Under the pieces are notes generated by a model. It saw only the letters and a program-made list of their open reading frames with translations, was not told the origin of the DNA and did no database searches. From contig CM069872.1 of assembly GCA_036172665.1 (NCBI GenBank), forward strand, positions 37,000,101 to 37,064,100: DNA of 64,000 nucleotides, written 5' to 3'. Made by a program: the position numbers and the translations under genes. This DNA comes from Prosopocoilus inquinatus. Lineage: Eukaryota; Arthropoda; Insecta; Coleoptera; Lucanidae. Shown one piece after another: positions 15,121 to 64,000 of this stretch. The stretch's first letter is position 1; every line of letters starts with the position of its first letter.

Positions 15121-15270
15121 GAAACTAATAGCGTTTTTCGTTAGCTGCACCAGTGTGCACTGAGTGTATCTCTATCTCGTTTTATTACATAAAGCTAAAC
15201 CGAGATAGAGATACACTCAGTGCGCACTGAGAGCAAGAAAGTGCGACCAGTGGAAAACGCTATTAGTTTC
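15121..15270. mobile_element. Short fold-back MITE (150 bp)
   Basis: Outer ends are GAAACTAATAGCGTTTT and its mirror. Inner arms GAGTGTATCTCTATCTCG and the mirror CGAGATAGAGATACACTC are a perfect match around a loop of about 20 nt. It is non-coding. It sits just upstream of the viral glycoprotein-like relic. Confidence 0.7.
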
Positions 15271-15389: not shown

Positions 15390-16330
15390 AAGGGGTACCT
15401 GGTTAAGTGGGGAAGGTATTAAGAGAAGTTTTATATATCATGAAGTGTATTCCTAAATTAGTCGAAATAAGAAGGACTAACAATTGTTTTAACGAATTAC
15501 ATGTTGTTGTTAATAACGAGGCTTCTTATATGTCCTCGGTAACACACGTCATTGAGAAGCACGCAGAAGAAATTGAATGCTCAGATATCGCACTTCCATT
15601 GTATAACATCGATATGTAGGATTTGCTCCACAACCAGTTTCAAATATTGAGCCAATTATTCTAAAGGCTTCAGACGAAACTATCACCAGATTTACATCTA
15701 TTAAAAATTTAGGTTGTGGAGGCTTGTACACTGACCAAGAAATAAACAATGTTCAACATAATTTTGCTTTCAGTATACAAAGACAAACAGTTACTTACCA
15801 TAACGATAAAAATTATTGGGTATATACAGTCATAAATAATAAGTTGGGTTAGTTGCATTGTTTATATACATCCCAAAAGTGATGTTAATTTAACGTGTTT
15901 TCTGTTGACTCAACTCATTATTTTTCTTAGTGTACACTCTCAACAGAAAACACGTTAAATGAACATTACTTTTGGGATGTTAATCCAAACGAAATTAAAC
16001 ATATCGCAAGAGATACACTAAGCTACGTCTGGGGATATTTTGTTGAAATAGGAATGTGTACGTCAGGGTTTATTGGTATTTATATCACTATTAGACAAAT
16101 AAAATATATTGTTTCACTTATTATCAACGGATTATCATTGTACCAAACCATGGGTTGTGATATCTCGTTATTGGCCAGCATCTGGACCGTTTTTACTAAT
16201 CAGAAAGATACTGAACCGACTATTAGGACCGTTCTTACTACTTGGGTTTTACATTCCCAGTAGAGAAACCATAAAGACACTGAACTGACTACTAGGGACT
16301 CCACTCAACCATCCGGTGACATAGTAATAA
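15390..16330 (+). pseudogene. Glycoprotein-like endogenous viral element, broken
   Basis: Several plus-strand frames read as consecutive pieces of one membrane glycoprotein. The first piece (about 15395-15620) has Cys spacing and short motifs (KCIPKLVEIRRTN, HVIEKHAEEIEC) that I associate with the ectodomain of chuvirus-type glycoproteins found as relics in insect genomes. The second (about 15620-15850) has GCGGLYTDQEIN. The third (about 15980-16263) has a hydrophobic segment around MCTSGFIGIYITI, as at a membrane-proximal end. The pieces are separated by stop codons and frame changes and by a palindromic insertion at 15868-15980, so no intact product can be made. No polymerase or LTR adjoins it. 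Chuvirus origin is an inference from motif memory; an env of a retroelement is the alternative. Confidence 0.4.
15868..15980. repeat. 41-bp inverted duplication inside the viral relic
   Basis: The arms 15868-15908 and 15940-15980 mirror each other with only a few differences (left arm starts ACATCCCAAAAG, right arm ends CTTTTGGGATGT) around a 31-nt spacer. The right arm lies in the readable glycoprotein frame, so the left arm looks like an inverted copy of it. Confidence 0.75.
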
Positions 16331-24605: not shown

Positions 24606-25188
24606 TATATTTAGTAGACGGATCTGTAGTCAATTGTTTTGCAGAATTCATCTTTCTTTTTTGTTTGATTTTGTTTGTTTGATATTTCTTATATTCCTTA
24701 ATTTTCAGTATATCGAAATTGTTAAATTAGTCTATCAGGGACTAGTTTTCTTCATTTATCCAGTAAACTATCCTAATACTTTCAATTGAAAATCTTTCTT
24801 ATTCATCTTTGCCAAACTAAACCTGTATCAGAAGGCGACCGTGAGGAAATATGTCATTGATCTTTCTTTAACTAATTTCGTCTAAAACCTTGTACCAGGT
24901 AAGCCCGATAATTTTCATAATTGCATTTTATTTTGTAAATAGGACTTCAGAATTAGTAAATAATACTCGTTGACTATTTTCAAACTCAAACACACACGTT
25001 TACCCCTAGAATACACTAATATTATTAGTTAGTATTATTATTATTAATAAGTTAAAAGACAAAATAAACGAAGACTTGCTTTTAATAGAAAACTGGTTTG
25101 ATGCAAACGGCTTAATATTAAATTTAAATAAAACTGAATATCTCTTATTTGAAAATATCAGTGACACTGTAAACATTAAAATTGACGA

Positions 25189-25273
25189 ATAGATAAAACA
25201 GTGACATCTTACGATCGCTTTTTGACCTGACATTGCAGTAGGATAAAATTGAAGAGGAATTGCTACAAAATTT
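25189..25273 (-). mobile_element. 85-bp retrozyme fragment nested in the LINE
   Basis: The insert contains GACATCTTACGATCGCTTTTTGACC-like sequence (a stretch of about 60 bp) matching the 312-bp repeat of the array at 61.2-62.9 kb at roughly 85%. It starts at the same unit boundary as that array. It is flanked by perfect 14-bp direct repeats, ATTAAAATTGACGA (25175-25188 and 25274-25287), that belong to the LINE sequence. On the minus strand this is the 3' end of the unit, so it looks like a 5'-truncated retroinsertion. It lacks the ribozyme. Confidence 0.65.
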
Positions 25274-26027
25274 ATTAAAATTGACGATACAATCTTAAGT
25301 AGAGCTACAGACATTAAATTTTTAGGTTTACATTTGGACGAAAATTTGACATGGACAAGACAAATTCAAGACATTGCAACAAGTCTTTCTATTGCTTGTT
25401 TCACAGTGCGTACTATTCGACTTAAAGCAGGTCCAGAAGCCGCTAGAACAATATATTTTGCATTATTGGAATCTCGACTGAGGTACTGCATTGTTTTTTG
25501 AGGTTTTACTACAATGGATAATCTTGAGCTAATTTTCAAAATTCAGAAACGAGCTATTAGATACTTATCAGGACAAAGTCCACGAGCTCACTGTCGTTGT
25601 CGATTCATTCAATATAAAATTTTAACAGCATACTCGTTGTTTCTTATAGAAGTATTAACATTCAACTTTAAAAACAAGCGCAATCTGAAGGAAAGGCAAG
25701 ATTTTCACACGCATAACACCTGCAGTAAAAAGGATCTCCATTTGCCTAGGCCAGAAACAGCATTAATTAAAAATTCATTGTACTATAATGGAAATTTTCT
25801 ATATAATTGACTTCCTAAAGAATTTAAAAATATACACGACGCAAAGCTCTTTAAAAGAAAACTAAAAGGGTTGTACTTATCAAAAGCATTCTACAGCTTA
25901 GATGAGTTCCTAACAAGTGACTTCAGTGTTTAATGTTCTGTTTGTGTTTTTATTGATTGTAGTACTTCTAGATTTTAGATATATATCTGCATGTAAAGAC
26001 CAACTGTCATGAGATGGGTAAATAAAT

Positions 26028-44307: not shown

Positions 44308-46980
44308 TTATTTTTCCTTCTTCTTTTTTTCCTTTGCACTGCCTTTCTTTGTTACCTTACTTGCTTTAGACGTCACAGTTTTCGCTTGATTTTCTTCGGC
44401 GTTTTGTCTCTTCCTTTCTTCCCTCTCTTTTATTTTTATCTCACGCATTCTTATATCGTTAATTATGGTGTACGCGTTGAGATACAGTATGTTCAAAAAT
44501 TCCAAAAACGAAAGTTTATAATCAAGATTTACCACAACATCATCTTCCATGACTGCCGGACAAATTTTTGCGATACAGGTCACGAGCTTCTTCGGTTTCA
44601 TCCTCAAGAACGCATGCAAGTTCTTCCGGGCGATGTCGTCTTCGATCGGGTAGAGCGGTTTTGCTTCTGGTTTTTCCCCGAAGATAAGTTCATCTGATAG
44701 GAAAATAACATTTTCACTAACAGCTGTTACATTTTTCCCAGAAAGAAGGTGTGCCACATTTTTGTCATCTTCAAATAATTCCTCGTAGCATCTACATCGC
44801 AGTCCATACTTCAAACAAAAGGTAAGAAAGATCCTAACAGAATGGGGTTCCCCGATACTGGTATATAGGGCATACGCACTTTGAATGGGAAGTGCGTCTT
44901 TGTACTCGTATAATGCGAATCCTTTCAACTTTCCTGCGTTTGGTAAGATATCATTATGCAATAGCTTCTCGAAAGCAGTAGCTAAAACGCCTTGTTCCCT
45001 ACTGCACAGGGATTCCTCCCCATAAATCGCCCAAGCAGTTCCCAATAGAGAGAGTAAAAATTGCCAAAAGTAGATCTGCTCGAATGGATGGTGCTCGGTT
45101 TCCACACCACTGCAAGGATTGGCGTTCAAACTTTCGTCTGTATCTATAATACTGTAGCCCTTCGAAGTTATCCCCGAATCATAGTACATTTGCCAGAGGA
45201 AAAGACGGACTATTACACATTTAAAAACAATTTTCTCCGACGTTGCTATGGTAGCATACTGATGATAAAGATGATGCAGAGGCAGATAATTACGGTTCAA
45301 AGCTATCCGTGTTTTATTCTCTTCCAAATATACACTCGCTTGCGAGTTCAAATCAGAATCTTCTTGGAAATCTTCTGGTGGACTTGAACACTTGTACGCA
45401 ACAATCAGTTTCTCCAGAAAATAGCTTAGATCAACTTGCTCCGGTTCAAAATGTATCGGTATAGAAACGGGACTTAAGAGCGCGGATAATTTCTTAGGAA
45501 AATCTGATAATTCTATGAACTTGTGAATTCCTGGGGTCATATCAAAGTCTGGTTCACTTAGCTGAGAAATCCCCGCTATGCTAACTCGATGAGGCGTTGA
45601 TGATGTCGCAGAACGGCTCTTTCTTCTATAGTCTTTGAAAGACGCGCTGTGCAGAGAACCCCATGGGTTGACGATGGCTGGCTTGTCAAATGAAAACAGC
45701 GGCTTCTTTTGCACGACTGTACCATTTCCGCAGATTATTATTCCAGGGCCGTGCTTCATATTGTTCACCCAGAAACCGGCCATTCTCGCACCTCCGCGGA
45801 ACCCAAAATACATAAGGCCTCGTCCATTTCTCATGCCGCGAAGCCAGAAACCCTGATAATTATTGGTGATCGGAAACGTGAAGGTAGTATTAAAAAATGC
45901 TTTCCACACGTATTTCCCATAACCGCTCATAACGCCGCTCAACCATTCCCCCTTGTAATAGTCTGAGTTACCCCATACCATCGTTCCTTTTCCATCCCTT
46001 TTCCCTTCATGCCAGTTGCCCTGGTAGCAACAATGTTTGACGTACTGGCGAATGCCGTTGCCTTGACGTAAATCATCGCGCCATTCCCCATCGTACCAAT
46101 TATTATTAAATCCGTATAGCAACCATCCCTTACCATTCTTTTTTCCTCCTTTCCACTCGCCACTGTACAACATAGAAGTTGAACACACATACATACAGCC
46201 TTCACCGTGAAGTAAGCCGTTGCAGAAATCTCCGATGTAGTAGCTATTATCAGTATATGCTAGTCTACCTCTACCAGTAAGACACCCATTTTTAAATTCA
46301 CCCTCGTATACTGTTCCATCAGACCACGTAAATATACCACGTCCATGAAACCGTTTTTTCCAGACAGACCCTTTGTAAGAATTTCCATTTTTGAAATTAA
46401 TGGTTACTTCTTCTTTGCTATCGTTTACAAACCAGCTTTCGACTACTTTTATGCAACCAGTACCTTCTAAATTAGTACCCGTATCTTCTACAATAGTACT
46501 AATAATGCTAGGCAAAGTAAGTGGGCGTCTCTCAATTTTAGACGCACTTAGGGGCTTCAAACTGAGATCTGTTTTGGTTAGCGAGGCCAACGAACGTTTT
46601 CCCTTATCCTGACTTTGCCCAGATTTCAACTTCTGCTTTATAGAATTCCTCGACCCAAAACTCTTCTTCGATCTCTGAGACAAGGACACTTTAGTTCCGG
46701 AAACGTTCGATATCTGCGAGTTTTGCAGATCTTGTCGCGAGAGCTCTCTGAAATCTTTTACTTCGGTTAATGTAGCTTCCTCCTCCTTAGGACTCTCTGG
46801 TTCTGCATTTACTATACACTCGTCGACCACATACTTGAAAAGAGAATCAAAAAAGAGTGATATTATTTCTTCTCGGTAATTGATCTTCTGAGGTTGTATT
46901 GAATTAATGTTCGAGACATCGTCGGTAACCACTGAGGAAGTCTTTTTGCTAATATTTTCTGTTGCAGATATTATTGACAT
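44308..46980 (-). CDS. RSPH10B: MORN-repeat protein, radial spoke head 10B-like
   Basis: This is an 890-codon intronless frame. In the counting used here the first Met is at 46980; the frame continues nine codons upstream without an ATG. Residues about 202-420 hold nine MORN repeats (YEGEFKNG, YSGEWKGGKKNGKG, YQGNWHEGKRDGKG, YKGEWLSG and others). The N-terminal 180 residues are Ser/Lys-rich and probably disordered; a long helical C-terminal part follows, ending in a Lys-rich tail (KEKKKKEK). Length and order match RSPH10B, about 870 residues in mammals, a subunit of the radial spoke head that links the central pair to dynein control in motile axonemes. In insects, sperm flagella and mechanosensory cilia are the likely sites. 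Single-exon structure and isolation among transposons could mean a retrocopy that stayed intact. MORN-repeat proteins are easily confused, so the ortholog name is less certain than the family. Confidence 0.8.
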   Translation of the reverse strand: MSIISATENISKKTSSVVTDDVSNINSIQPQKINYREEIISLFFDSLFKYVVDECIVNAEPESPKEEEATLTEVKDFRELSRQDLQNSQISNVSGTKVSLSQRSKKSFGSRNSIKQKLKSGQSQDKGKRSLASLTKTDLSLKPLSASKIERRPLTLPSIISTIVEDTGTNLEGTGCIKVVESWFVNDSKEEVTINFKNGNSYKGSVWKKRFHGRGIFTWSDGTVYEGEFKNGCLTGRGRLAYTDNSYYIGDFCNGLLHGEGCMYVCSTSMLYSGEWKGGKKNGKGWLLYGFNNNWYDGEWRDDLRQGNGIRQYVKHCCYQGNWHEGKRDGKGTMVWGNSDYYKGEWLSGVMSGYGKYVWKAFFNTTFTFPITNNYQGFWLRGMRNGRGLMYFGFRGGARMAGFWVNNMKHGPGIIICGNGTVVQKKPLFSFDKPAIVNPWGSLHSASFKDYRRKSRSATSSTPHRVSIAGISQLSEPDFDMTPGIHKFIELSDFPKKLSALLSPVSIPIHFEPEQVDLSYFLEKLIVAYKCSSPPEDFQEDSDLNSQASVYLEENKTRIALNRNYLPLHHLYHQYATIATSEKIVFKCVIVRLFLWQMYYDSGITSKGYSIIDTDESLNANPCSGVETEHHPFEQIYFWQFLLSLLGTAWAIYGEESLCSREQGVLATAFEKLLHNDILPNAGKLKGFALYEYKDALPIQSAYALYTSIGEPHSVRIFLTFCLKYGLRCRCYEELFEDDKNVAHLLSGKNVTAVSENVIFLSDELIFGEKPEAKPLYPIEDDIARKNLHAFLRMKPKKLVTCIAKICPAVMEDDVVVNLDYKLSFLEFLNILYLNAYTIINDIRMREIKIKEREERKRQNAEENQAKTVTSKASKVTKKGSAKEKKKKEK

Positions 46981-47003
46981 TGGCGTTCGATTGAATGTTC
47001 CTG

Positions 47004-47024
47004 TCAATAGACTTGCCTACTCAT
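47004..47024 (-). promoter_or_regulatory. Upstream open frame of the MORN gene
   Basis: A six-codon frame (MSRQVY then TGA) begins at an ATG 44 nt upstream of the main start and ends 24 nt before it. If the transcript starts further upstream it would temper translation. It is also a reason to check for a 5' intron. Confidence 0.35.
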
Positions 47025-49317: not shown

Positions 49318-49615
49318 GGGCCAATTTCATAACAGGACTTTAAATTTAAAGTTACTTTAACCTAAAAAAATACAGTTTAAACAGTGAGACCCTACGTTCA
49401 CTTTTAGACCTAGCATTGCATTAGGAACTCCCGAGCTACGCTTTTGCTGAAAACGCCCCAAATAGGTCTGAAACAGCTGTATAGAGACTGCTCGAGAGTT
49501 TCACTGCAATCAAAAACGATTTTTGACAAAATTTCCTAAAAAAAAACATTTGTTTCCCTATTCTTAAAGTGACTTTAAATTAAAGCTTTCTTAAGGTCTG
49601 CCTATGAAAATGGCC
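49318..49615. mobile_element. MITE carrying a decayed hammerhead
   Basis: The outer ends are inverted copies: GGGCCAATTTCATAACAGG with ACTTTAAATTTAAAGT inside it at the left, and the mirror of TTTCATAGGCAGACCTTAAG and GGCCATTTTCATAG at the right. The interior (about 49384-49550) is similar to the 312-bp retrozyme unit, including a mutated hammerhead. The left end is shared with 18416-18455. Target duplication not resolved. Confidence 0.55.
49432..49494 (+). ncRNA. Decayed hammerhead ribozyme, retrozyme type
   Basis: Aligned to the intact ribozymes at 61-63 kb: outer stem I CGAGC/GCTCG kept, core CTGAAAA instead of CTGAAGA, stem II reduced to a weak CGCCCC/GGTCT pairing, GAAACAGCTGT kept, cleavage triplet GTA, inner stem I eroded. 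The lost core G predicts no cleavage. Confidence 0.55.
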
Positions 49616-50350
49616 ATTAGTCTTGAATTTAAATTTCTAATCACTTTCTATGTTATTTAATCTTACAGAACCGCAGTATAAAACCATTATAGTGTACTTT
49701 AGTGTATCAGAAAGGAACCAGAAGTGAAACAAATTTTAGAAGAAATTACATGGCTGGCAACCTGTGTAATATTTCGTATCCAAACTTTAGAAAATAATTC
49801 ATAAATAAAAAGCAACAAATGTTTAGGACTTATTTTATGAACTTAACATTTTATGAATTTTAATTTAACTTTCCTAAAGTTTAGTTTCATTTTCTTCTAA
49901 ATGAAAAATTCAGCTTCTTGCTCACCTAATCGTTCCAGTTCAACCCCAAACATTAATAATATCAAATTTTATGCAAAAATAATACATAATGAAAAGAAAA
50001 TCATCAAAGAAGTATTATTTTGAAAATAATTATGTTAGTGCTAGGTTTGCAGCATGTCAAGGAAGTAGAAAATAAATCCCTTCAATTATTTGAATTATTT
50101 TTTTTTTGTGGCACCAAATATTCAAAACTTCACTAATCAGAGTGCAATGACTGCTACATCGAACGTTAGGCGCATGCGCGACAACTAACTTCATACAGGA
50201 TTCAAATAACAATTATAGCTGAGGCTAACCAATCTTATTACTCCCAAAGTTACTGAATAGCAATCATAATGAATATTGTCCAGATTATTGTTACCAGATA
50301 TTCACTTCACAATATTGTTATCTAACAATTTCTGTAGCAGAATCGGACTG
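49616..50350. other. Gene-free stretch
   Basis: AT-rich; nothing recognised before the left LTR. Confidence 0.4.
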
Positions 50351-51183
50351 TGTTTAAGCGGCGCGTTGGGGAGTCCAGGAACTCGTTGATCCGGAAGACG
50401 ATCCACCACGTGCACTTATTGTTTATTTGAAAGAAACACTGACACGCTATTTACAATATTTATTTACAAAAGCTTTTCCTAACACAAACTACAAACAATT
50501 ATAAAAACATTTAATCGCGGTTTTAACACTTAGCTGATATGAAAATTTGACGCATTGATTTCGCGACCTGAAAACCCCTTGTTTTCGAATGCCCCTTTTT
50601 TCCTTGTGTTGAGCAATTTAAAACTTTTGATTCAGGAATTACAATGTGGGGGAACGATGAAACTATTGGTCGTTGCTAACGAATAAACCGGTGATTGGTT
50701 GGGCTTGATAATTTAGAGAGTGAACTAAAGAAATATTACTAATATATTTTCCTAGAATGCTGAAGCCGGGAAAAACCGTGTCTTAGGGTTGCGAATAAGG
50801 TAAGGGCGCCTAATGCTAGCTTAAACAGCAAGGGGTCGGCGAGTCCTTAAGGCGGAATGCAAACGATGACAATGGACGGAATTAGAAATTGATGCGTTTC
50901 GATGTAAAATGCTCATTTAGTAGGTCTGAGCGCAAACATTGAAATAAACCTTACAGTGAACTGAATGGGGCATACACAGCGGGTGATGGAATTTTACTTT
51001 AATAGTTCGGTATGAGAATAATTCGAAAGATTTGGAAATGCCAGATTACTGACTACGCGGAATATCTTCGAGTAATGAAAATGAATAACGTACATGCCAA
51101 TATGATTAAAATTAAATTATAAAAATAAAGAAAATTAGAATGTATAGTTTTAACCTTAATCTAAAATAGCATAATGCTTAACA
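50351..51183 (-). repeat. Bel/Pao 3' LTR
   Basis: 833 bp, starting TGTTAAGCATTATG and ending CTTAAACA on the minus strand; 831 of 833 positions match the other LTR. Confidence 0.93.
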
Positions 51184-51185
51184 TA

Positions 51186-51196
51186 CTCCCCGCCTT
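51186..51196 (-). other. Polypurine tract
   Basis: AAGGCGGGGAG on the minus strand, two bases before the 3' LTR, in the position of the plus-strand primer. Confidence 0.75.
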
Positions 51197-51257
51197 GAAA
51201 GATTCATCTTTCAAAAAATAAAAATAAAAAAATAAAAATAAAGATAAATTAAAACTC

Positions 51258-54200
51258 TTAATCCAAGGGGAAAGGGCATAAACGTGTGGCGGCCCGCTTG
51301 AAAATACCAGATGAGGTCCGAACGACGCCGTCATCGCCGGGGAACACTTCTGTGATACGTCCAGAGGGCCAATGTAGCGGATGAAGGTTCTCCTCTCGTA
51401 GGAGCACCAGGGAGCCGGGGACCAGCTGAGTTCCCTTGTTGGGTTTCCATCTTGTCCTAGACTGCAACGTGTGTAGGTATTCTCTTGACCAGCGACTCCA
51501 GAATTGTTGACGAGTTTTCTGTATATACTGCCATCTAGACAACTGATTGGTCTTAAGATGCATTAAACTGGGTTCTGGGCTGGATAAAAGTGAGCCTCCA
51601 ATTAGGAAGTCTGAGGGACTGAGAAAGGTGAAGTCGTTTGGATCATTAGATATGGGAGTAATTGGTCGTGAATTTAGAATTGCTTCTATCTGAATTAATA
51701 GGGTATACATTTCCTCAAAATTTAACGATGTGGTGCCTAGCATTTTTGACAAATGAAATTTTGCTGACTTTACGGCTGCCTCCCAGATTCCTCCGAAGTG
51801 TGGTGATCTTGGTGGAATGAAGTGCCATTCTATTCCGTCGTTCGCCATTTCAGTGTGGAGCCTATCTTTTTCTTTTTCAGACTGAAAGAACTCTCTTAAT
51901 TTCGCGAGTTCTCTGTTAGCACCAACGAACTGCGTCCCGTTGTCAGAATAAATATTAATCGGTTTCCCTCGGCGTCCCATAAACCTCCTCAATGCTGCTA
52001 AGAATGCTTCAGAGGTGAGACTTCCAACTAACTCTAGATGGATTGCCTTTGTGGCGAAGCAAATAAATACCGCTCCATAACCCTTCACTGTTGTACTCCC
52101 TCGTCTTCGCCCTTCCCGTAAATGAAGAGGTCCGAAATAGTCAACTCCTACGTTTTCAAAAGGTTTAGACGGATTAACTCTCTTAGAAGGAAGATTGTCC
52201 ATTAAAAGTTCTATTCCTTTGGGATTAGCTTTGAAGCATGTCACGCATTTATGAATGATTTTCTTTACCGTATTTTTTCCCGAAATAGGCCAATATTTTT
52301 CACAAACAGCTGCCAAAGTTGATTGGACTCCGGAGTGTAAAGATCGTGTATGCTCATGGATTATTATTAGCTTCGTTAGTAGGTGATCTTGAGGGAGCAA
52401 ACTCTGGTGCCTCTGCGCATCTGGTACGTTTGCATGTTTCAATCTACCTCCAACCCTAAGTACTCCATTTTCATCAATAAAAGGGTTCAAGCTTAATATT
52501 TTGCTTGACGAAGATAGCTGTTTTCCGTTTCGCAATTGATCCCATTCACCTTTGAATGCTTGGTTTTGAGCAACTTTGACTAGTACCATCATTGCTTCAT
52601 TTAATTCCGATGATTTAAGAGAACCGCTATTGCATTCATCCGAGCCCGCCTTTCGAGCGCGTGCGTTATTTTTGAAACGTAGACAATAAGCGACTATCCT
52701 CTTAAGACGAGTCAGTGACGAATACCTGCTGAACCAGTCAAATTCTTCGTTGTTCACAATGGTGTGAACTACTTGTCGCTTCTCAGGAATTTCTTCAACG
52801 TTGATGTCACTTCCGCAGAGTGGTGCCTCTTCACTCGTAGCTGTCAACCATTCAGGGCCCTTCCACCAAATTTGAGAATCTAATAATCGCTGCGGCGTTG
52901 ATCCTCTCGTTATTAGATCCGCGGGGTTATCATTCGTGCCCACGTGATGCCAGTCATACACGTCCGTTAGATCCTGAATTTCGCTTACTCTGTTTGCAAC
53001 AAATGTTTTCCAAGTTTTTGATGAGGATTTTAACCAATTTAACACAATTTTAGAATCAGTCCAATAACAAGTTTTATTGAACTGCATGTTTAGAGCTTGT
53101 CTTATTTTGTTTACTAGTTGAGCTAATATCAAAGCTCCGCAAAGCTCTAATCTTGGTAAAGAAATTACTTTCAAAGGCGCCACTCTTGACTTGGAACCTA
53201 ATAAATTTGAGGAACTTTCTCCCTTTTCGTTTACTGCCCTTATGTATAAGCATGCACCGTATCCTTTCTCGCTTGCATCGCAGAAACCATGTAGTTCGAA
53301 CAAAGTTGGATTGTGAATTTCAATAACATTCCGTGGTACTTTGATTTCATTTATAAATTGAATATTCTGCGCGTATTCAAACCATGTGTGTTGCAGATTA
53401 ATGGGGATACTTTCATCCCAATCCAATTTTAGTTCCCATAATTTTTGAATTAAAATCTTTGCTACCATTACAAGAGGACCAATTAATCCTAATGGATCGA
53501 AGATTTTTGCCACTGACGATAGAATGTAACGTTTGGTAATTTTGCTAGGATGTTTCAGTACTTGAATCGAATATTGCAGGATATCTGAACTTGAATCCCA
53601 CTGTAATCCTAGCGTATTTACTTCTTTGCTCTTGTCCATGTCCAGAATAGTATTTTCAGTTTGTGAATCGGACCTATCTTTCAGCAAATGCCTTGTATTC
53701 GAGTTCCATTTTCTGAGGTTGAACCCACCTTTTGATAAAATCATAATAACTTCCTCTCTGATTTTCTTGGCTTCTGATAAGTTGTTGCATCCTGTCAGAA
53801 GGTCGTCAACATAGAAGTCTCGTAGTACTACTTCAGAGCCAGCTGGATAATTGTGACTCTCTTGTGCAGCTAACTCTTGCAAAGCTCTAATTGCTAAAAA
53901 TGAAGCTGGGGCTGTCCCATATGTAACTGTAGTTAGTTCGAACGTTTTTATGGCTTCCTGCTTATTGTCGCGCCACAAAATATGCTGAAAAGGCGTGCAA
54001 TCATCATGCATAATAACCTGGCGATACATTTTTTCTACGTCGGCAGTCATTACGTACTTAAACGTCCGGAATCGAGCTATGATGTCAAACAAGTCTTGCT
54101 GTAATTTAGCACCTACGAGCAATGCGTTGTTTAAAGATATGCCAGATGATGTTCTGGCTGAACCATCGAAAACTACTCTCAGCTTGGTGGTGATGCTTTT

Positions 54201-55058
54201 TTCTTTTACAATCGCGTGGTGAGGTAAGTAAAAGTGAGGTATGTCGTCATTTGCGTGCGGTAATTCCTTCATGTGGCTTAAATTCAAGTATTCATGAATG
54301 AATGCTGCATATTCAGTTTTCAATTGGGGGTCTTTGTCCAATTTCCTCTCTAAAGAATAAAATCTTTTTAAGGCTTGATCGCGAGATTTACCTAATTCAG
54401 GTGAATCTTCTCTGAAAGGGAGCGAAACGATGAACCGTCCCTCGTCGTTTCTTTCAACGGTTTTTATGAAATATTGTTCGCAAAGTTTTTCATCCGGTGT
54501 TAGTTTGGCGTGCTGGGTGTAAGATTCTAATTCCCAAAATTTGCTTAGTAAGTCATCTAACTCCGTCGTTGAAATATTGCAAATCGCTTGAGTGAACGGC
54601 TTTTCTTGCCTTGAAACTACTTTTCCCGATATTACCCATCCTAGTAATGTTTTCTGCAAACACGGTAGATTTCTCCCTAGGCTGATTTGTCCAATGCATA
54701 ATAATTTAAAGAATAATTCAGCACCTATTAATAAGTCAATATTTTTAGGCTGATAGAACTCTGGATCCGCGAGTTTTATGTTTTCCGGAATTTGAATGGT
54801 GTCTTTCGATATTGGAGTAAGCGGTATTTGATTTGATATCTTGTCTAATATCAAACAGTTTAACAGCGCTTGAAATTTGCTGTTTTTCGATTGTATTTGC
54901 ACGTCAACGTTATGCGTTACTCTCGTGCTGCTTTGAGTTACGCCTGACACTGTTACTTGCGCTCTTCTTTGTGGTAAGCCAAGACGCTTCGCTAAATCTT
55001 TTGATATTAAATTAGATTGCGATCCTGAATCTAGAAGTGCGCGTTTGACCATTGACAT
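51258..55058 (-). CDS. pol: Bel/Pao Pol polyprotein
   Basis: 1266 codons from the ATG at 55058. Protease: DSG at residues 10-12 near the very start. Reverse transcriptase: LRVVFDGSA near 293-301, the first Asp in TADVEKMYRQV (D340), and catalytic YVDD at 416-419. RNase H: D594 in GFCDAS, E638 in LPRLELCGA, D668 in YWTDSK. Integrase: zinc site H903-x4-H908 and C938-x2-C941, then D973 (GVDYFGPL), D1039 (YSDNGTQF) and E1093 (GIWEAAVKS). The C-terminal domain of Bel/Pao integrases (LVLLREENLHPLHW) closes the protein. All catalytic residues are present and no stop interrupts. The ATG start overlaps the end of gag by 47 bases in another frame and falls within the protease, so this ATG is probably not the true start of translation; Pol would normally be made as a Gag fusion. 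Confidence 0.95.
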   Translation of the reverse strand: MSMVKRALLDSGSQSNLISKDLAKRLGLPQRRAQVTVSGVTQSSTRVTHNVDVQIQSKNSKFQALLNCLILDKISNQIPLTPISKDTIQIPENIKLADPEFYQPKNIDLLIGAELFFKLLCIGQISLGRNLPCLQKTLLGWVISGKVVSRQEKPFTQAICNISTTELDDLLSKFWELESYTQHAKLTPDEKLCEQYFIKTVERNDEGRFIVSLPFREDSPELGKSRDQALKRFYSLERKLDKDPQLKTEYAAFIHEYLNLSHMKELPHANDDIPHFYLPHHAIVKEKSITTKLRVVFDGSARTSSGISLNNALLVGAKLQQDLFDIIARFRTFKYVMTADVEKMYRQVIMHDDCTPFQHILWRDNKQEAIKTFELTTVTYGTAPASFLAIRALQELAAQESHNYPAGSEVVLRDFYVDDLLTGCNNLSEAKKIREEVIMILSKGGFNLRKWNSNTRHLLKDRSDSQTENTILDMDKSKEVNTLGLQWDSSSDILQYSIQVLKHPSKITKRYILSSVAKIFDPLGLIGPLVMVAKILIQKLWELKLDWDESIPINLQHTWFEYAQNIQFINEIKVPRNVIEIHNPTLFELHGFCDASEKGYGACLYIRAVNEKGESSSNLLGSKSRVAPLKVISLPRLELCGALILAQLVNKIRQALNMQFNKTCYWTDSKIVLNWLKSSSKTWKTFVANRVSEIQDLTDVYDWHHVGTNDNPADLITRGSTPQRLLDSQIWWKGPEWLTATSEEAPLCGSDINVEEIPEKRQVVHTIVNNEEFDWFSRYSSLTRLKRIVAYCLRFKNNARARKAGSDECNSGSLKSSELNEAMMVLVKVAQNQAFKGEWDQLRNGKQLSSSSKILSLNPFIDENGVLRVGGRLKHANVPDAQRHQSLLPQDHLLTKLIIIHEHTRSLHSGVQSTLAAVCEKYWPISGKNTVKKIIHKCVTCFKANPKGIELLMDNLPSKRVNPSKPFENVGVDYFGPLHLREGRRRGSTTVKGYGAVFICFATKAIHLELVGSLTSEAFLAALRRFMGRRGKPINIYSDNGTQFVGANRELAKLREFFQSEKEKDRLHTEMANDGIEWHFIPPRSPHFGGIWEAAVKSAKFHLSKMLGTTSLNFEEMYTLLIQIEAILNSRPITPISNDPNDFTFLSPSDFLIGGSLLSSPEPSLMHLKTNQLSRWQYIQKTRQQFWSRWSREYLHTLQSRTRWKPNKGTQLVPGSLVLLREENLHPLHWPSGRITEVFPGDDGVVRTSSGIFKRAATRLCPFPLD
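55012..55058 (-). other. Gag-pol overlap and frame change
   Basis: Pol codons are displaced by +1 relative to gag codons. The shared window is 47 nt and falls where family members read continuously into the protease DSG motif. The sequence CAAACGCGC lies at the likely change point. Confidence 0.7.
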
Positions 55059-56376
55059 CTAATATATCGATGATGGCGGTTGACAGCAATACTTGACTTG
55101 TTAATTGAAGAACAGCGCTGTGATTTGAAATTGTAGTTGCTACCTGCTGTTCAGACTTTGCTGGAACTGATTCTACTTCAAAAGATTTGTGTAATAAAGT
55201 GTTATGCTTCTTGTGACATGTCTTACAGGAGCTTGAAGTACATTGTGCTGCTACATGATTTGACTTTAAGCAATTTGTGCATAATTTTTTCGATTTAACT
55301 TCTTTCCAGCGGCGATCCACTGACATCGTAACTAACACCTTACATTGATAAATCGGGTGATTTTCTTCGCAAATCGGACATTTTGTGTTGTGTGTGATGA
55401 TATGTGTAGTTGTCTTGAATTTTGGTTGAAACTTTTGTGAAGTACTTGGTCGCGTGGTATCACTGATTTTTGGAACCTTAATTAATGCCTCGAGCGTTTG
55501 ACATTTCTTTGCTAAGAACTCAGTCATTTCTTTAAAAGTTGGCATGGTAGTTGTAGTCAAGGTTGATTCCCACTCCTTCCCGGTTAATGAATCCAATTTT
55601 GATGAGATAACATAAACCAGTAGATCATCCCAATAATCAGTCGGACATTTTAACGATTTTAAGGCGCGCATGTGCTTGAGAGCCCCGTCTAGAATATGAC
55701 GCAATTCCTTGAAACTTTCTTTTAGGGCGCACGGTAACTCTAAAATGGCCTTGATGTGCTTCTGAACGATTAATCTTTTATTGTCATAGCGTTCTCTCAA
55801 AATCTGCCACGCGTCAATGTAATTATCGGATGTTATTTCTATTGATTCTAAACACGATGCTGCTTCTCCTTTCACGGAGGACTTTAGGTAATGAAATTTT
55901 TGAATGTTTGATAGGGTTGAATTTGCGTTAATTAACGATTCAAAGGTGTCATGAAATGGATACCAGTCCTCATAGTTTCCGTAGAAAACCGGCAAATCAA
56001 TTCGCGGCAAACGAATTTGCGTGTTGAGTTGTGACTCCGTGTTTGTAAGTCGATGGTCGTAGATATTGTTATCTTTCGTAATGAAGGCACGTGTATCGTA
56101 TTTTGATAATAATTGCTCCGCGAGACCCAATGCATTGTAGAAATTTAATTCAAATTCTTCCCGTTCTTGATCATCTACTTCTAACTCTTCTAATATTTCT
56201 ATTTCCGATTGTATGCTATCAAAATCCGACAAAAGTAACTTTATATTTTCCTTGCGCTCTTTTATGTGAAATACATCTGTGTCTGCGTTACTGGATTTCA
56301 TGAACGTGACGAATCTTGTTATCATTGCCTTTAATTGTCCGCGTTTGTGTTTGAGAGACTTGAGTGCGTCAGCCAT
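55012..56376 (-). CDS. gag: Bel/Pao Gag
   Basis: 454 codons from the ATG at 56376. The N-terminal 110 residues are helical and charged. A capsid-like region of the DUF1759 type follows (LPVFYGNYEDWYPFHDTF, residues about 128-146, to about 290). Two zinc motifs follow: C333-x2-C336 with H340 and C345, and a knuckle C366-x2-C369-x4-H374-x4-C379. Gag forms the particle and packages the RNA. The frame ends at 55012 just inside the protease-coding region. The last residues (TSRFRIAI) read the wrong frame relative to the conserved protease start, so the frame passes to pol by one base (+1). Either a programmed +1 shift, a recent 1-bp deletion or a sequencing error would explain it. Confidence 0.9.
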   Translation of the reverse strand: MADALKSLKHKRGQLKAMITRFVTFMKSSNADTDVFHIKERKENIKLLLSDFDSIQSEIEILEELEVDDQEREEFELNFYNALGLAEQLLSKYDTRAFITKDNNIYDHRLTNTESQLNTQIRLPRIDLPVFYGNYEDWYPFHDTFESLINANSTLSNIQKFHYLKSSVKGEAASCLESIEITSDNYIDAWQILRERYDNKRLIVQKHIKAILELPCALKESFKELRHILDGALKHMRALKSLKCPTDYWDDLLVYVISSKLDSLTGKEWESTLTTTTMPTFKEMTEFLAKKCQTLEALIKVPKISDTTRPSTSQKFQPKFKTTTHIITHNTKCPICEENHPIYQCKVLVTMSVDRRWKEVKSKKLCTNCLKSNHVAAQCTSSSCKTCHKKHNTLLHKSFEVESVPAKSEQQVATTISNHSAVLQLTSQVLLSTAIIDILDVNGQTRTSRFRIAI

Positions 56377-56585
56377 GTTAATAGACGATTATTTTTAACG
56401 GAAAGTATTTGTAAGGAAAAGCGATTCGGGATTGACAATATGTTTTAGGAAACCAATTGGAGACTCACCCGGTGGATTGTTGCCTCTGCCCTTGAATTAT
56501 CCTGTCTTGATCCTTTTTCTATGCAACTTCTGCGACCACAGTGTTTCCTCTTCAGTTGTTGTTGCTGCGTAATCGGAGACTGAGA

Positions 56586-56602
56586 TCCGGCTCGAAGGAC
56601 CA
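56586..56602 (-). other. Primer binding site for tRNA-Tyr
   Basis: 17 nt, one base inside the 5' LTR, read on the plus strand as TCCGGCTCGAAGGACCA, which equals the 3' end of insect tRNA-Tyr with CCA. The match to tRNA-Tyr is from knowledge of its acceptor sequence (CCTTCGA at the 5' end). Confidence 0.8.
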
Positions 56603-56603
56603 A

Positions 56604-57436
56604 TGTTTAAGCGGCGCGTTGGGGAGTCCAGGAACTCGTTGATCCGGAAGACGATCCACCACGTGCACTTATTGTTTATTTGAAAGAAACACTGACAGGC
56701 TATTTACAATATTTATTTACAAAAGCTTTTCCTAACACAAACTACAAACAATTATAAAAACATTTAATCGCGGTTTTAACACTTAGCTGATATGAAAATT
56801 TGACGCATTGATTTCGCGACCTGAAAACCCCTTGTTTTCGAATGCCCCTTTTTTCCTTGTGTTGAGCAATTTAAAACTTTTGATTCAGGAATTACAATGT
56901 GGGGGAACGATGAAACTATTGGTCGTTGCTAACGAATAAACCGGTGATTGGTTGGGCTTGATAATTTAGAGAGTGAACTAAAGAAATATTACTAATATAT
57001 TTTCCTAGAATGCTGAAGCCGGGAAAAACCGTGTCTTAGGGTTGCGAATAAGGTAAGGGCGCCTAATGCTAGCTTAAACAGCAAGGGGTCGGCGAGTCCT
57101 TAAGGCGGAATGCAAACGATGGCAATGGACGGAATTAGAAATTGATGCGTTTCGATGTAAAATGCTCATTTAGTAGGTCTGAGCGCAAACATTGAAATAA
57201 ACCTTACAGTGAACTGAATGGGGCATACACAGCGGGTGATGGAATTTTACTTTAATAGTTCGGTATGAGAATAATTCGAAAGATTTGGAAATGCCAGATT
57301 ACTGACTACGCGGAATATCTTCGAGTAATGAAAATGAATAACGTACATGCCAATATGATTAAAATTAAATTATAAAAATAAAGAAAATTAGAATGTATAG
57401 TTTTAACCTTAATCTAAAATAGCATAATGCTTAACA
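56604..57436 (-). repeat. Bel/Pao 5' LTR
   Basis: 833 bp; it carries the promoter for the minus-strand element. Differs from the 3' LTR at two positions. Confidence 0.93.
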
Positions 57437-57764
57437 TACTGTTTAAATAATTTTTTCTATTTTGGCACTTTAATAGCTTATATTATGAAACTCAAATGGG
57501 TCATTTGGATTTCATAAAGTAGAGCATTAAAAAATTTATTTTGTCAGGTTGGTAGCAACATACTTAGCTACATTTGTTCAAATCTCAAATTACAAATGAT
57601 AACCTACTTCAAAATTATGGATGTTTGAAATTATCTTTATTTGTTGACACCGCAAATCATAAACATAACTAAAACAATTTCTAAACTTGCAAAATATTTA
57701 ATAACAAGCATAAACTTCAAACTGATATTTGTTTGAAATTATTTTAAACGTTAGCCGATGTCAC

Positions 57765-61144: not shown

Positions 61145-61156
61145 AATAATTACTTA
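61145..61156. repeat. Target-site duplication, left copy
   Basis: AATAATTACTTA, identical to 62921-62932 at the other end of the array. Confidence 0.8.
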
Positions 61157-61342
61157 TGAACATATAAAATAGCGACATCTTACTATCGCTTTTTGACCTA
61201 ACATTGCAGTAGGATAGACAAATTGAAGCGGGATTTGCTCCTAATGAGTCCCCCATGCAAGGCGGCCATGCTTGCTGTCAAAGCATAATGAAAGATTTTA
61301 GAAAAATTTTGTGCAAATCGTTTTTGATTGCAGCGAGAACCT

Positions 61343-61405
61343 CGAGCAGCTTCTGGACAGCTGTTTCAGCCCTGCTTGGGGCTTCTTCAGCAGAAACGTA
61401 GCTCG
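61343..61405 (-). ncRNA. Type I hammerhead ribozyme, unit 1
   Basis: Same sequence as the plus-strand copy at 62813-62875, where the fold is described. Predicted cleavage between 61356 and 61355. Cleavage at successive units would release 312-nt monomers. Confidence 0.75.
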
Positions 61406-61654
61406 ACATTCCCGCTGCAGACCAAAAACGACTTGCCCAATTTATTCGCAATTGCGATGTAAGAATGATGAACATATAAAATAGCGACATCTTACTATCG
61501 CTTTTTGACCTAACATTGCAGTAGGATAGACAAATTGAAGCGGGATTTGCTCCTAATGAGTCCCCCATGCAAGGCGGCCATGCTTGCTGTCAAAGCATAA
61601 TGAAAGATTTTAGAAAAATTTTGTGCAAATCGTTTTTGATTGCAGCGAGAACCT

Positions 61655-61717
61655 CGAGCAGCTTCTGGACAGCTGTTTCAGCCCTGCTTGGGGCTTCTTC
61701 AGCAGAAACGTAGCTCG
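61655..61717 (-). ncRNA. Type I hammerhead ribozyme, unit 2
   Basis: Exact repeat of unit 1 at +312 bp; predicted cleavage between 61668 and 61667. Confidence 0.75.
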
Positions 61718-61966
61718 ACATTCCCGCTGCAGACCAAAAACGACTTGCCCAATTTATTCGCAATTGCGATGTAAGAATGATGAACATATAAAATAGCGAC
61801 ATCTTACTATCGCTTTTTGACCTAACATTGCAGTAGGATAGACAAATTGAAGCGGGATTTGCTCCTAATGAGTCCCCCATGCAAGGCGGCCATGCTTGCT
61901 GTCAAAGCATAATGAAAGATTTTAGAAAAATTTTGTGCAAATCGTTTTTGATTGCAGCGAGAACCT

Positions 61967-62029
61967 CGAGCAGCTTCTGGACAGCTGTTTCAGCCCTGCT
62001 TGGGGCTTCTTCAGCAGAAACGTAGCTCG
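61967..62029 (-). ncRNA. Type I hammerhead ribozyme, unit 3
   Basis: Exact repeat at +624 bp; predicted cleavage between 61980 and 61979. Confidence 0.75.
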
Positions 62030-62278
62030 ACATTCCCGCTGCAGACCAAAAACGACTTGCCCAATTTATTCGCAATTGCGATGTAAGAATGATGAACATA
62101 TAAAATAGCGACATCTTACTATCGCTTTTTGACCTAACATTGCAGTAGGATAGACAAATTGAAGCGGGATTTGCTCCTAATGAGTCCCCCATGCAAGGCG
62201 GCCATGCTTGCTGTCAAAGCATAATGAAAGATTTTAGAAAAATTTTGTGCAAATCGTTTTTGATTGCAGCGAGAACCT

Positions 62279-62341
62279 CGAGCAGCTTCTGGACAGCTGT
62301 TTCAGCCCTGCTTGGGGCTTCTTCAGCAGAAACGTAGCTCG
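62279..62341 (-). ncRNA. Type I hammerhead ribozyme, unit 4
   Basis: Exact repeat at +936 bp; predicted cleavage between 62292 and 62291. The fifth unit is cut off at the inversion junction before its ribozyme. Confidence 0.75.
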
Positions 62342-62812
62342 ACATTCCCGCTGCAGACCAAAAACGACTTGCCCAATTTATTCGCAATTGCGATGTAAGA
62401 ATGATGAACATATAAAATAGCGACATCTTACTATCGCTTTTTGACCTAACATTGCAGTAGGATAGACAAATTGAAGCGGGATTTGCTCCTAATGAGTCCC
62501 CCATGCAAGGCGGCCATGCTTGCTGTCAAAGCATAATGAAAGATTTTAGAAAAATTTTGTGCAAATCGTTTTTGATTGCAGCGAGAACCTCGCACAAAAT
62601 TTTTCTAAAATCTTTCATTATGCTTTGACAGCAAGCATGGCCGCCTTGCATGGGGGACTCATTAGGAGCAAATCCCGCTTCAATTTGTCTATCCTACTGC
62701 AATGTTAGGTCAAAAAGCGATAGTAAGATGTCGCTATTTTATATGTTCATCATTCTTACATCGCAATTGCGAATAAATTGGGCAAGTCGTTTTTGGTCTG
62801 CAGCGGGAATGT

Positions 62813-62875
62813 CGAGCTACGTTTCTGCTGAAGAAGCCCCAAGCAGGGCTGAAACAGCTGTCCAGAAGCTGCTCG
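62813..62875 (+). ncRNA. Type I hammerhead ribozyme in the inverted unit
   Basis: Order on the plus strand: outer stem I CGAGC (62813-62817), bulge TAC, inner stem I GTTTCTG (62821-62827), core CTGAAGA (62828-62834), stem II AGCCC/GGGCT (62835-62839 with 62846-62850, loop CAAGCA), GAAA with A62854 opening stem III, stem III ACA/TGT around GC (62854-62861), C62862 as the cleavage base of GUC, then inner stem I CAGAAGC (62863-62869), a single T, and outer stem I GCTCG (62871-62875). Every core position fits the hammerhead consensus, and stem I has the internal loop that natural type I forms use to contact loop II. Confidence 0.8.
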
Positions 62876-62920
62876 AGGTTCTCGCTGCAATCAAAAACGA
62901 TTTGCACAAAATTTTTCTAA

Positions 62921-62932
62921 AATAATTACTTA
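62921..62932. repeat. Target-site duplication, right copy
   Basis: AATAATTACTTA, the partner of 61145-61156. The bases outside and inside differ on the two sides, so the match is exactly 12 bp. Confidence 0.8.
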
Positions 62933-63430
62933 GTAATAAATAAACCTTATTCAAATTTACATCTGTATTTAGGCCCGTATGACATGGTAATATTCCTTGT
63001 ATGAAATTTGCGAAAAACTGACAGCTACAGGGTATTAGATGCTGCTGACGGAAATACGCATATAGCAATACGTGCTATAACAACTACGTTAATTAGTTTT
63101 AAATTAAGCAGAAAATTTATTTACATTTTTGATTTTATAAAGTTTTTCGTAATTATATGCTAACTATCAACAACCTATGACGACTGCGTTGTTTGAAATC
63201 CTTGTGACGTTTCTTGGCACCGACTGCCTGTGCGGGAAGCTCTGCTTGCGGTTGACTTGTCTTCAGAAATCTTAATTAAAAGATGTTTGTAGTGTATTGT
63301 CTAATGTAGTACAGGTCGTCTCTGTAGTCTTGGAGAAGTCGTAGCATAAGTTATAGCGGTTTGTGATCCGTATTCCTTCCTTCAATCGCATGCTTAAAGA
63401 ATTTTACAGCAGATAGCAAATTAAATGGCT
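62933..63430. other. Gene-free stretch
   Basis: Contains the first copy of a roughly 100-bp direct repeat (63056-63163); otherwise nothing recognised. Confidence 0.4.
63056..63163 (+). repeat. Direct repeat, copy 1
   Basis: Shares TTTAAATTAAGCAGAAAATT and TTTTTCGTAATTATATG with 63902-64000 at about 85-90% over 100 bp, 845 bp apart in the same orientation. Confidence 0.65.
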
Positions 63431-63434
63431 GGTA

Positions 63435-63700
63435 GTTATAGTCGTGAACTCTGTTGCCGTTGTTGTAGCTTCTAGCGGTTGCCGAACTTGTAGCGGTTGC
63501 CGGGATTGTCCCTGTTGACGTACCTTGCTGCTGCTGCTGTAACTGCTAGCGGTTGCTGACTTTGCCAAGCTTGCCGCTGTTGATTTAGCTTGTGACTGTT
63601 ACGGTAGCTTGTAGCGGTTGCTATAGCTTGTAGCTGTTGTTGCAGCTTGTAGTTATTGCCACAGCTTGTAGCTGTTGCAGTAGCCGTTGATGTCGCTGGT
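63435..63700. repeat. Degenerate GTAGCNGTTGC minisatellite
   Basis: Units of about 18 bp built on AGCTTGTAGC and GGTTGC recur about a dozen times between 63460 and 63690, with a GCTGCTGCTGCTG run near 63527. The Ala/Thr/Gln-rich minus-strand frame is a by-product of this repeat. Confidence 0.7.
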
Positions 63701-63901: not shown

Positions 63902-64000
63902 CAGCGATACGTGCCATAATAATTCCGTTAATTAGCTTTAAATTAAGCAGAAAATTTATTTACATTTTTTATTGTATAAATTTTTCGTAATTATATGGTA
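63902..64000 (+). repeat. Direct repeat, copy 2 (runs to the window edge)
   Basis: Partner of 63056-63163. The pair brackets the minisatellite, as a tandem unit of about 845 bp or a pair of terminal repeats would. The window end prevents a decision. Confidence 0.6.

Follow-up and report, generated by a model that had tools for sequence, protein, structure and literature searches.

How an array of ribozyme-bearing repeats came to lie near one end of the 64,000-nucleotide stretch of the Prosopocoilus inquinatus genome analysed here (hereafter, the window), and which enzyme copied it there, are the questions raised by this locus. Both the enzyme that mobilises animal retrozymes and the role of the RNA circle as its template were left open by Cervera and de la Pena (2020; PMC7229834). 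An insertion whose anatomy is preserved at both ends hints at how such elements move and makes the question of the helper testable. We consider it likely that the locus is a young retrozyme insertion that was reverse-transcribed into its target from both ends; we are less sure of either a circular template or a helper derived from a Penelope-like element (PLE).

Tandem-repeat computation indicated that the 312-bp period was exact over the array (4.6 copies, 100% matches), with 0 mismatches between the four full units, bearing out the identical units described in an earlier note made from the sequence letters alone. That note had placed tandem units throughout 61157-62920. The description held for the array, and failed for the last unit, which follows the array directly, is inverted and carries the sole plus-strand hammerhead. 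The extent was corrected to 61156/61157-62923, a compound insertion of ~1.77 kb flanked by AATAATTACTTA. Unit numbering begins, with position 1, at the first base 3' of the predicted hammerhead cut. The RNA sense of the array is that of the minus strand, with its outer end at unit position 200 (window 61156), or at 199 if the A at 61156 is counted as target, and its inner start at position 12 (62592). The inverted copy spans unit position 43, across the cleavage junction, to position 61 at its outer end. A spacer of 31 bp (62562-62592) separates it from its exact reverse complement, and the array and inverted copy form a perfect 331-bp fold-back. Matches to microRNA-precursor models at 62490-62664 (77 bits, below the gathering score of 130) were rejected as this fold-back hairpin itself.

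The 12-bp target-site duplication encloses the whole compound (Table 1). One A at the left and AAT at the right are common to unit and target, and the outer ends are therefore given as 199-200 and 58-61. A 12-bp match was found at 0 of 200,000 random junction pairs. With a looser control from which the array was excluded, there were 182, 43 and 17 matches of 10, 12 and 14 bp, respectively, per 1,000,000 junctions; the counts of an earlier control that included the array were inflated (99, 66 and 66 of 300,000). The unit has a G+C content of 0.436, and 61156-62923 contains no open reading frame of at least 120 aa, stop to stop. Just past the insertion there is a direct repeat (63064-63159 and 63903-63997; 91% identity over 96 bp, ~840 bp apart), between the copies of which lies a diverged 19-bp minisatellite (63568-63684).

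Table 1. Coordinates in the window of the insertion, its hammerheads and the related copies.
Feature	Position	Strand	Remarks
Left target-site duplication	61145..61156		AATAATTACTTA; exact 12-bp match; last A may be unit
Tandem array, 4.6 identical 312-bp units	61156..62592	-	Exact period
Hammerhead 1	61350..61396	-	Predicted cleavage 61356/61355; Rfam Hammerhead_1, 30.6 bits; descriptor
Hammerhead 2	61662..61708	-	Predicted cleavage 61668/61667; covariance scan and descriptor
Hammerhead 3	61974..62020	-	Predicted cleavage 61980/61979; covariance scan and descriptor
Hammerhead 4	62286..62332	-	Predicted cleavage 62292/62291; Hammerhead_HH9 only (62272-62342, 17.9 bits); descriptor
Inverted copy, 331 bp	62593..62923	+	Exact reverse complement of 62231-62561
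Hammerhead 5	62822..62868	+	Predicted cleavage 62862/62863; Hammerhead_HH9 only (62812-62882, 17.9 bits); descriptor
Right target-site duplication	62921..62932		AATAATTACTTA; first AAT common to unit
Old fold-back relative	49371..49541		Antisense then sense piece; decayed hammerhead
Old partial relative without hammerhead	25189..25273	-	82% identity, E 4e-19; unit 196 downward

The four complete array copies and the inverted copy all contain CTGAAGA, a 5-bp stem II (AGCCC/GGGCT), GAAA, stem III (ACA-GC-TGT) and GTC, as expected from the claim that every unit holds the complete parts of a hammerhead, and the two junctions that had been named, 61355/61356 and 62862/62863, agree with predicted cleavage sites. 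In the predicted fold, stem I has 7 bp, an internal loop and then at least 5 bp that run on into a long rod. The core nucleotides are complete (CUGAAGA, GAA, stem III A-C-A/U-G-U, and C17). A strict hammerhead descriptor matched at exactly five places on the two strands of the window, all type I, four on the minus strand in the array and one on the plus strand in the inverted copy; it matched 0 of 20,000 dinucleotide-shuffled units. By the covariance-model check that had been proposed, the claim formally fails at Rfam's own threshold: the match to Rfam Hammerhead_1, obtained in short scans only, scored 30.6 bits, below the gathering score of 34. In a 2-kb scan this family was given for three of the five identical copies (E 4.6e-5) and the other two appeared only as Hammerhead_HH9 (17.9 bits, E 0.44), while whole-window Rfam scans listed no hammerhead. 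Despite the score being below gathering, a 30.6-bit match in which every core nucleotide is present speaks for a real motif. In stem II, the pair adjoining the core (the first) is A-U; the Rfam consensus at this place is G-C, and the A-U pair may lower activity.

Folding of the 116-nt hammerhead region gave -57.9 kcal/mol for the free fold, in which GCUG of the core pairs with CAGC, and -51.9 kcal/mol for the hammerhead fold, or -53.0 kcal/mol with stem III open. The non-catalytic, unconstrained fold was thus favoured by 4.9-6.0 kcal/mol in a program that does not consider tertiary contacts and, because it does not allow a loop of 2 nt, drops the third pair of stem III. Stem III and its loop form an 8-nt palindrome (ACAGCUGU; duplex -11.1 kcal/mol). 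Several hammerheads are reported to have palindromic stem III regions able to pair in a dimer (PMC3088659, figure S8 legend), which makes a dimeric cut in the tandem transcript plausible. The monomer circle, in turn, may be self-protecting. Folded as a circle, the unit reached -114.0 kcal/mol versus a mean of -75.4 kcal/mol (sd 5.2) for shuffles, 0 of 100 of which were as low.

Three features missed in the earlier note are the most telling on movement: the inverted copy, the duplicated target site and the relatives of the unit. Two decayed relatives of the unit lie within the window (best E 5e-23 and 4e-19). The old fold-back relative comprises an antisense piece (about 49371-49430; unit ~197 down to 138; 75% identity, E 2e-5; nhmmer E 0.00044) followed by a sense piece (about 49431-49541; unit ~261 across the cleavage site to 60; 79% identity, E 5e-23), and so repeats the order of the young copy, from which it is 20-25% diverged. 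It is flanked by the 10-bp, A-rich repeat CCTAAAAAAA (49361-49370 and 49535-49544), whose right-hand copy overlaps the unit; a hammerhead scan gave no match in this relative. By eye, this copy seems to be nested in a short element at 49320-49620 with imperfect terminal inverted repeats (GGCCAATTTCATA... / ...TATGAAAATGGCC). The old partial relative is bounded by a 14-bp duplication, ATTAAAATTGACGA (25175-25188 and 25274-25287). A LINE-like reading frame is open across its joined flanks and interrupted by the insert, with a further stop downstream; Pfam named no family for the LINE-like stretch tested there.

Comparison of the three insertions revealed that their cDNA start positions were similar. 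The first cDNA starts at 199-200 in the young copy, at 196-197 in the old fold-back relative and at 196 in the partial relative (3/3 insertions within 196-200); the chance that three random unit positions span 4 or less is 0.00064. The second cDNA starts at 58-61 in the young copy and at 53-60 in the old one (2/2 fold-back insertions), and two random second starts fall within 8 or less with a chance of 0.055. These positions were taken from alignments, and the clustering is post hoc, drawn from n=3 insertions in one 64-kb window and blurred by the bases common to unit and duplications. About 138 nt lie between the two start sites, each of which is tied to one strand. In the predicted circle, the 17-nt windows centred on the starts (190-206 and 50-66) had mean unpaired probabilities of 0.73 and 0.79; ranked among the 312 possible windows of this length, they fall in the top 3.5% and 1.9%, respectively; both regions are AU-rich and were picked after the starts were known.

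On the left side of the insertion the plus strand passes from target into antisense unit, and on the right side the minus strand does so. An antisense unit that reads inward on each arm's own strand is what would be predicted if target 3' ends were primed on hammerhead-sense RNA. In addition, the copied sequence is unbroken through the predicted cleavage junction at 5/5 places. The uninterrupted junction in both cDNAs indicates that the template was not a cleaved linear monomer and was either a circle or an uncut multimer, and the identity of the units favours a single small template copied over and over.

Based on these observations, we propose that the hammerhead strand of tandem copies was transcribed, that the hammerheads presumably cut this RNA at GUC into 312-nt pieces, and that a host ligase would have circularised these pieces. 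The AT-rich target would then have been cut on both strands by a reverse transcriptase, most likely from a PLE, and both free target 3' ends would have been extended on joined RNA, circular or, less likely, multimeric. Synthesis from the plus-strand end would have started near unit 199 and gone 4.6 times round, and that from the minus-strand end near unit 58-61 and gone ~1.06 times round. Head-to-head joining of the two cDNAs, with gap filling, could have produced the 12-bp duplication. The insertion is probably young.

As to the enzyme, PLEs were put forward as a strong candidate helper by Cervera and de la Pena (PMC7229834), as a proposal only. In vitro, the PLE protein of Anolis, which prefers AT-rich DNA, cuts both target strands and extends each of them, with internal initiation at two adjacent sites without homology to the target (Frangieh et al. 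2024; PMC11167929). Other points in that study speak against a need for the hammerhead and do not fit the strand-specific starts found here. By analogy, we tentatively suggest, as one possible reading, that a PLE-type reverse transcriptase used both target strands, once cut, to begin copying a retrozyme circle at two internal sites that are fixed and single-stranded, the young copy representing more than one round from each site; the link between a PLE enzyme and the retrozyme is one that we infer. If true, this reading would supply insertion-level evidence for both the retrozyme helper and the circle template. Where both cDNA ends survive, an insertion yields start positions to set against those of a PLE across the genome.

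Several other explanations of the locus were weighed. An uncut linear multimer from another array could have served as template with the other steps as proposed, and would also account for cDNA that runs through the cleavage junction; unprocessed RNA was, moreover, the main insertion substrate in vitro (PMC11167929). We regard this variant as somewhat unlikely, as it requires hammerheads that remain uncut and, if one molecule served both cDNAs, an RNA of up to ~5.7 perfectly identical units. Classic twin priming by a LINE helper, as in the 5' inversions of LINE-1, acting on circular or multimeric retrozyme RNA in place of a PLE, likewise yields a head-to-head inversion with a duplication, and the window contains LINE-like coding remnants (identified by eye, in two stretches without a Pfam family). 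In twin priming, however, the first cDNA begins at the RNA 3' end, usually in poly(A), whereas the antisense pieces here begin without an A-tail and their starts are internal and similar across the three insertions, which makes a LINE helper rather improbable to us. Snap-back copying of the first cDNA was also considered as a way of producing the inverted copy; it would be possible for the young locus alone, and is disfavoured because in the old copy the sense arm stops near the same unit position, which snap-back does not predict (chance 0.055, n=2).

Explanations that dispense with reverse transcription, or with the structure itself, fared worse. Unequal exchange can expand tandem units, and with an inversion it might generate a fold-back or satellite array by DNA recombination, the hammerhead being a passenger; satellite DNA that carries hammerheads occurs in salamanders, schistosomes and cave crickets (PMC6309819). 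That a short duplication encloses the whole compound, that the old copies carry their own, different flanking repeats, and that the diverged fold-back copy repeats the order of the pieces with similar end points together make this origin very unlikely. Sequencing or assembly artefacts such as fold-back long reads make structures with perfect arms, and the 331-bp arms and 31-bp spacer match such products. The presence of the target duplication at both outer ends and of an independently diverged fold-back copy in the window, however, leaves an artefactual palindrome scarcely believable.

The anatomy of the locus also suggests what RNA could be made from it. A minus-strand transcript would contain the antisense arm first, which would fold perfectly onto the neighbouring sense unit; the fold-back hairpin, computed for the plus strand, has a folding energy of -647.8 kcal/mol. 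As the perfect fold-back arm covers hammerhead 4, this hammerhead would probably be blocked in a transcript of the locus, while hammerheads 1-3 stay free in this model and could yield two full 312-nt monomers. The fold-back could, in addition, supply double-stranded RNA against the retrozyme family.

Pfam searches of five stretches of the window identified families in three and none in two. The gene at 44308-47016 (minus strand) encodes a MORN-repeat protein. Its top four relatives, at 39-44% identity, come from scarab beetles, and two of these four carry the name radial spoke head 10 homologue; the next two come from weevils. On this one gene, a beetle host is likely. A BEL/Pao-type retrotransposon at 50351-57440 has Pao peptidase, reverse transcriptase and integrase families and direct terminal repeats of 837 bp (50351-51187 and 56604-57440), the 99.8% identity of which indicates a young insertion. 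A weak U6 snRNA-like match at 1256-1324 (28.5 bits, gathering 44; E 0.0048) is possibly a U6 pseudogene. Short imperfect inverted repeats at 15149-15230 and 15868-15980, with arms 85% and 79% identical, match microRNA-precursor models below gathering and are probably MITE-like.

We class the element as a non-autonomous, non-LTR metazoan retrozyme, a type already known, and its assignment to the retrozymes in the earlier note was correct. Metazoan retrozymes have 150-450-bp units and target duplications of more than 4 bp (PMC7229834). The element resembles those described there in its 312-bp unit present 4.6 times in tandem, in the type I hammerhead of each unit, in its G+C content below 50%, in having no long open reading frame, in its 12-bp duplication (14 and ~10 bp in the relatives), in its decayed relatives nearby (two in 64 kb) and in its highly self-paired predicted circle. 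It differs in its own sequence and its own host and, whereas most metazoan circles are described as leaving the hammerhead core free (PMC7229834), the predicted monomer fold here pairs part of the core. The main text of that article contains no mention of beetle, coleoptera or inverted, and among the matches listed in literature searches no title or abstract opening reported a retrozyme from a beetle or a retrozyme insertion with an inversion, which is no proof of absence. In searches for viral or prokaryote copies, the hammerhead core had 0 exact matches in viral contigs and a looser hammerhead pattern had 0 matches in genome contigs. A 19-base conserved stretch had one viral-contig match, which was taken as chance, as it comprised those 19 bases and a weak 24-base match (E 1.3) only.

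Plant LTR retrozymes, with a type III hammerhead, an LTR pair and a 4-bp duplication, were rejected as a class for this element, given its type I hammerhead, multimeric array and 12-bp duplication. The hammerhead satellites of cave crickets (pDo500), salamanders and schistosomes likewise consist of tandem units with a type I hammerhead, but this locus is a short insertion with a target duplication and two related insertions nearby rather than a long satellite block. PLEs with minimal hammerheads in their pseudo-LTRs share the type I hammerhead and the tandem arrangement. PLE hammerheads, however, are usually without helix III (PMC7761336), which is present here, and the reverse transcriptase and GIY-YIG coding region that defines a PLE has no counterpart in the compound insertion, where open reading frames of at least 120 aa are lacking. 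With the Anolis PLE (PMC11167929) the locus has in common an AT-rich target and reverse transcription that apparently begins internally from either strand of the target, although the Anolis start sites are adjacent and the same for both strands, whereas those found here are separated and each belongs to one strand.
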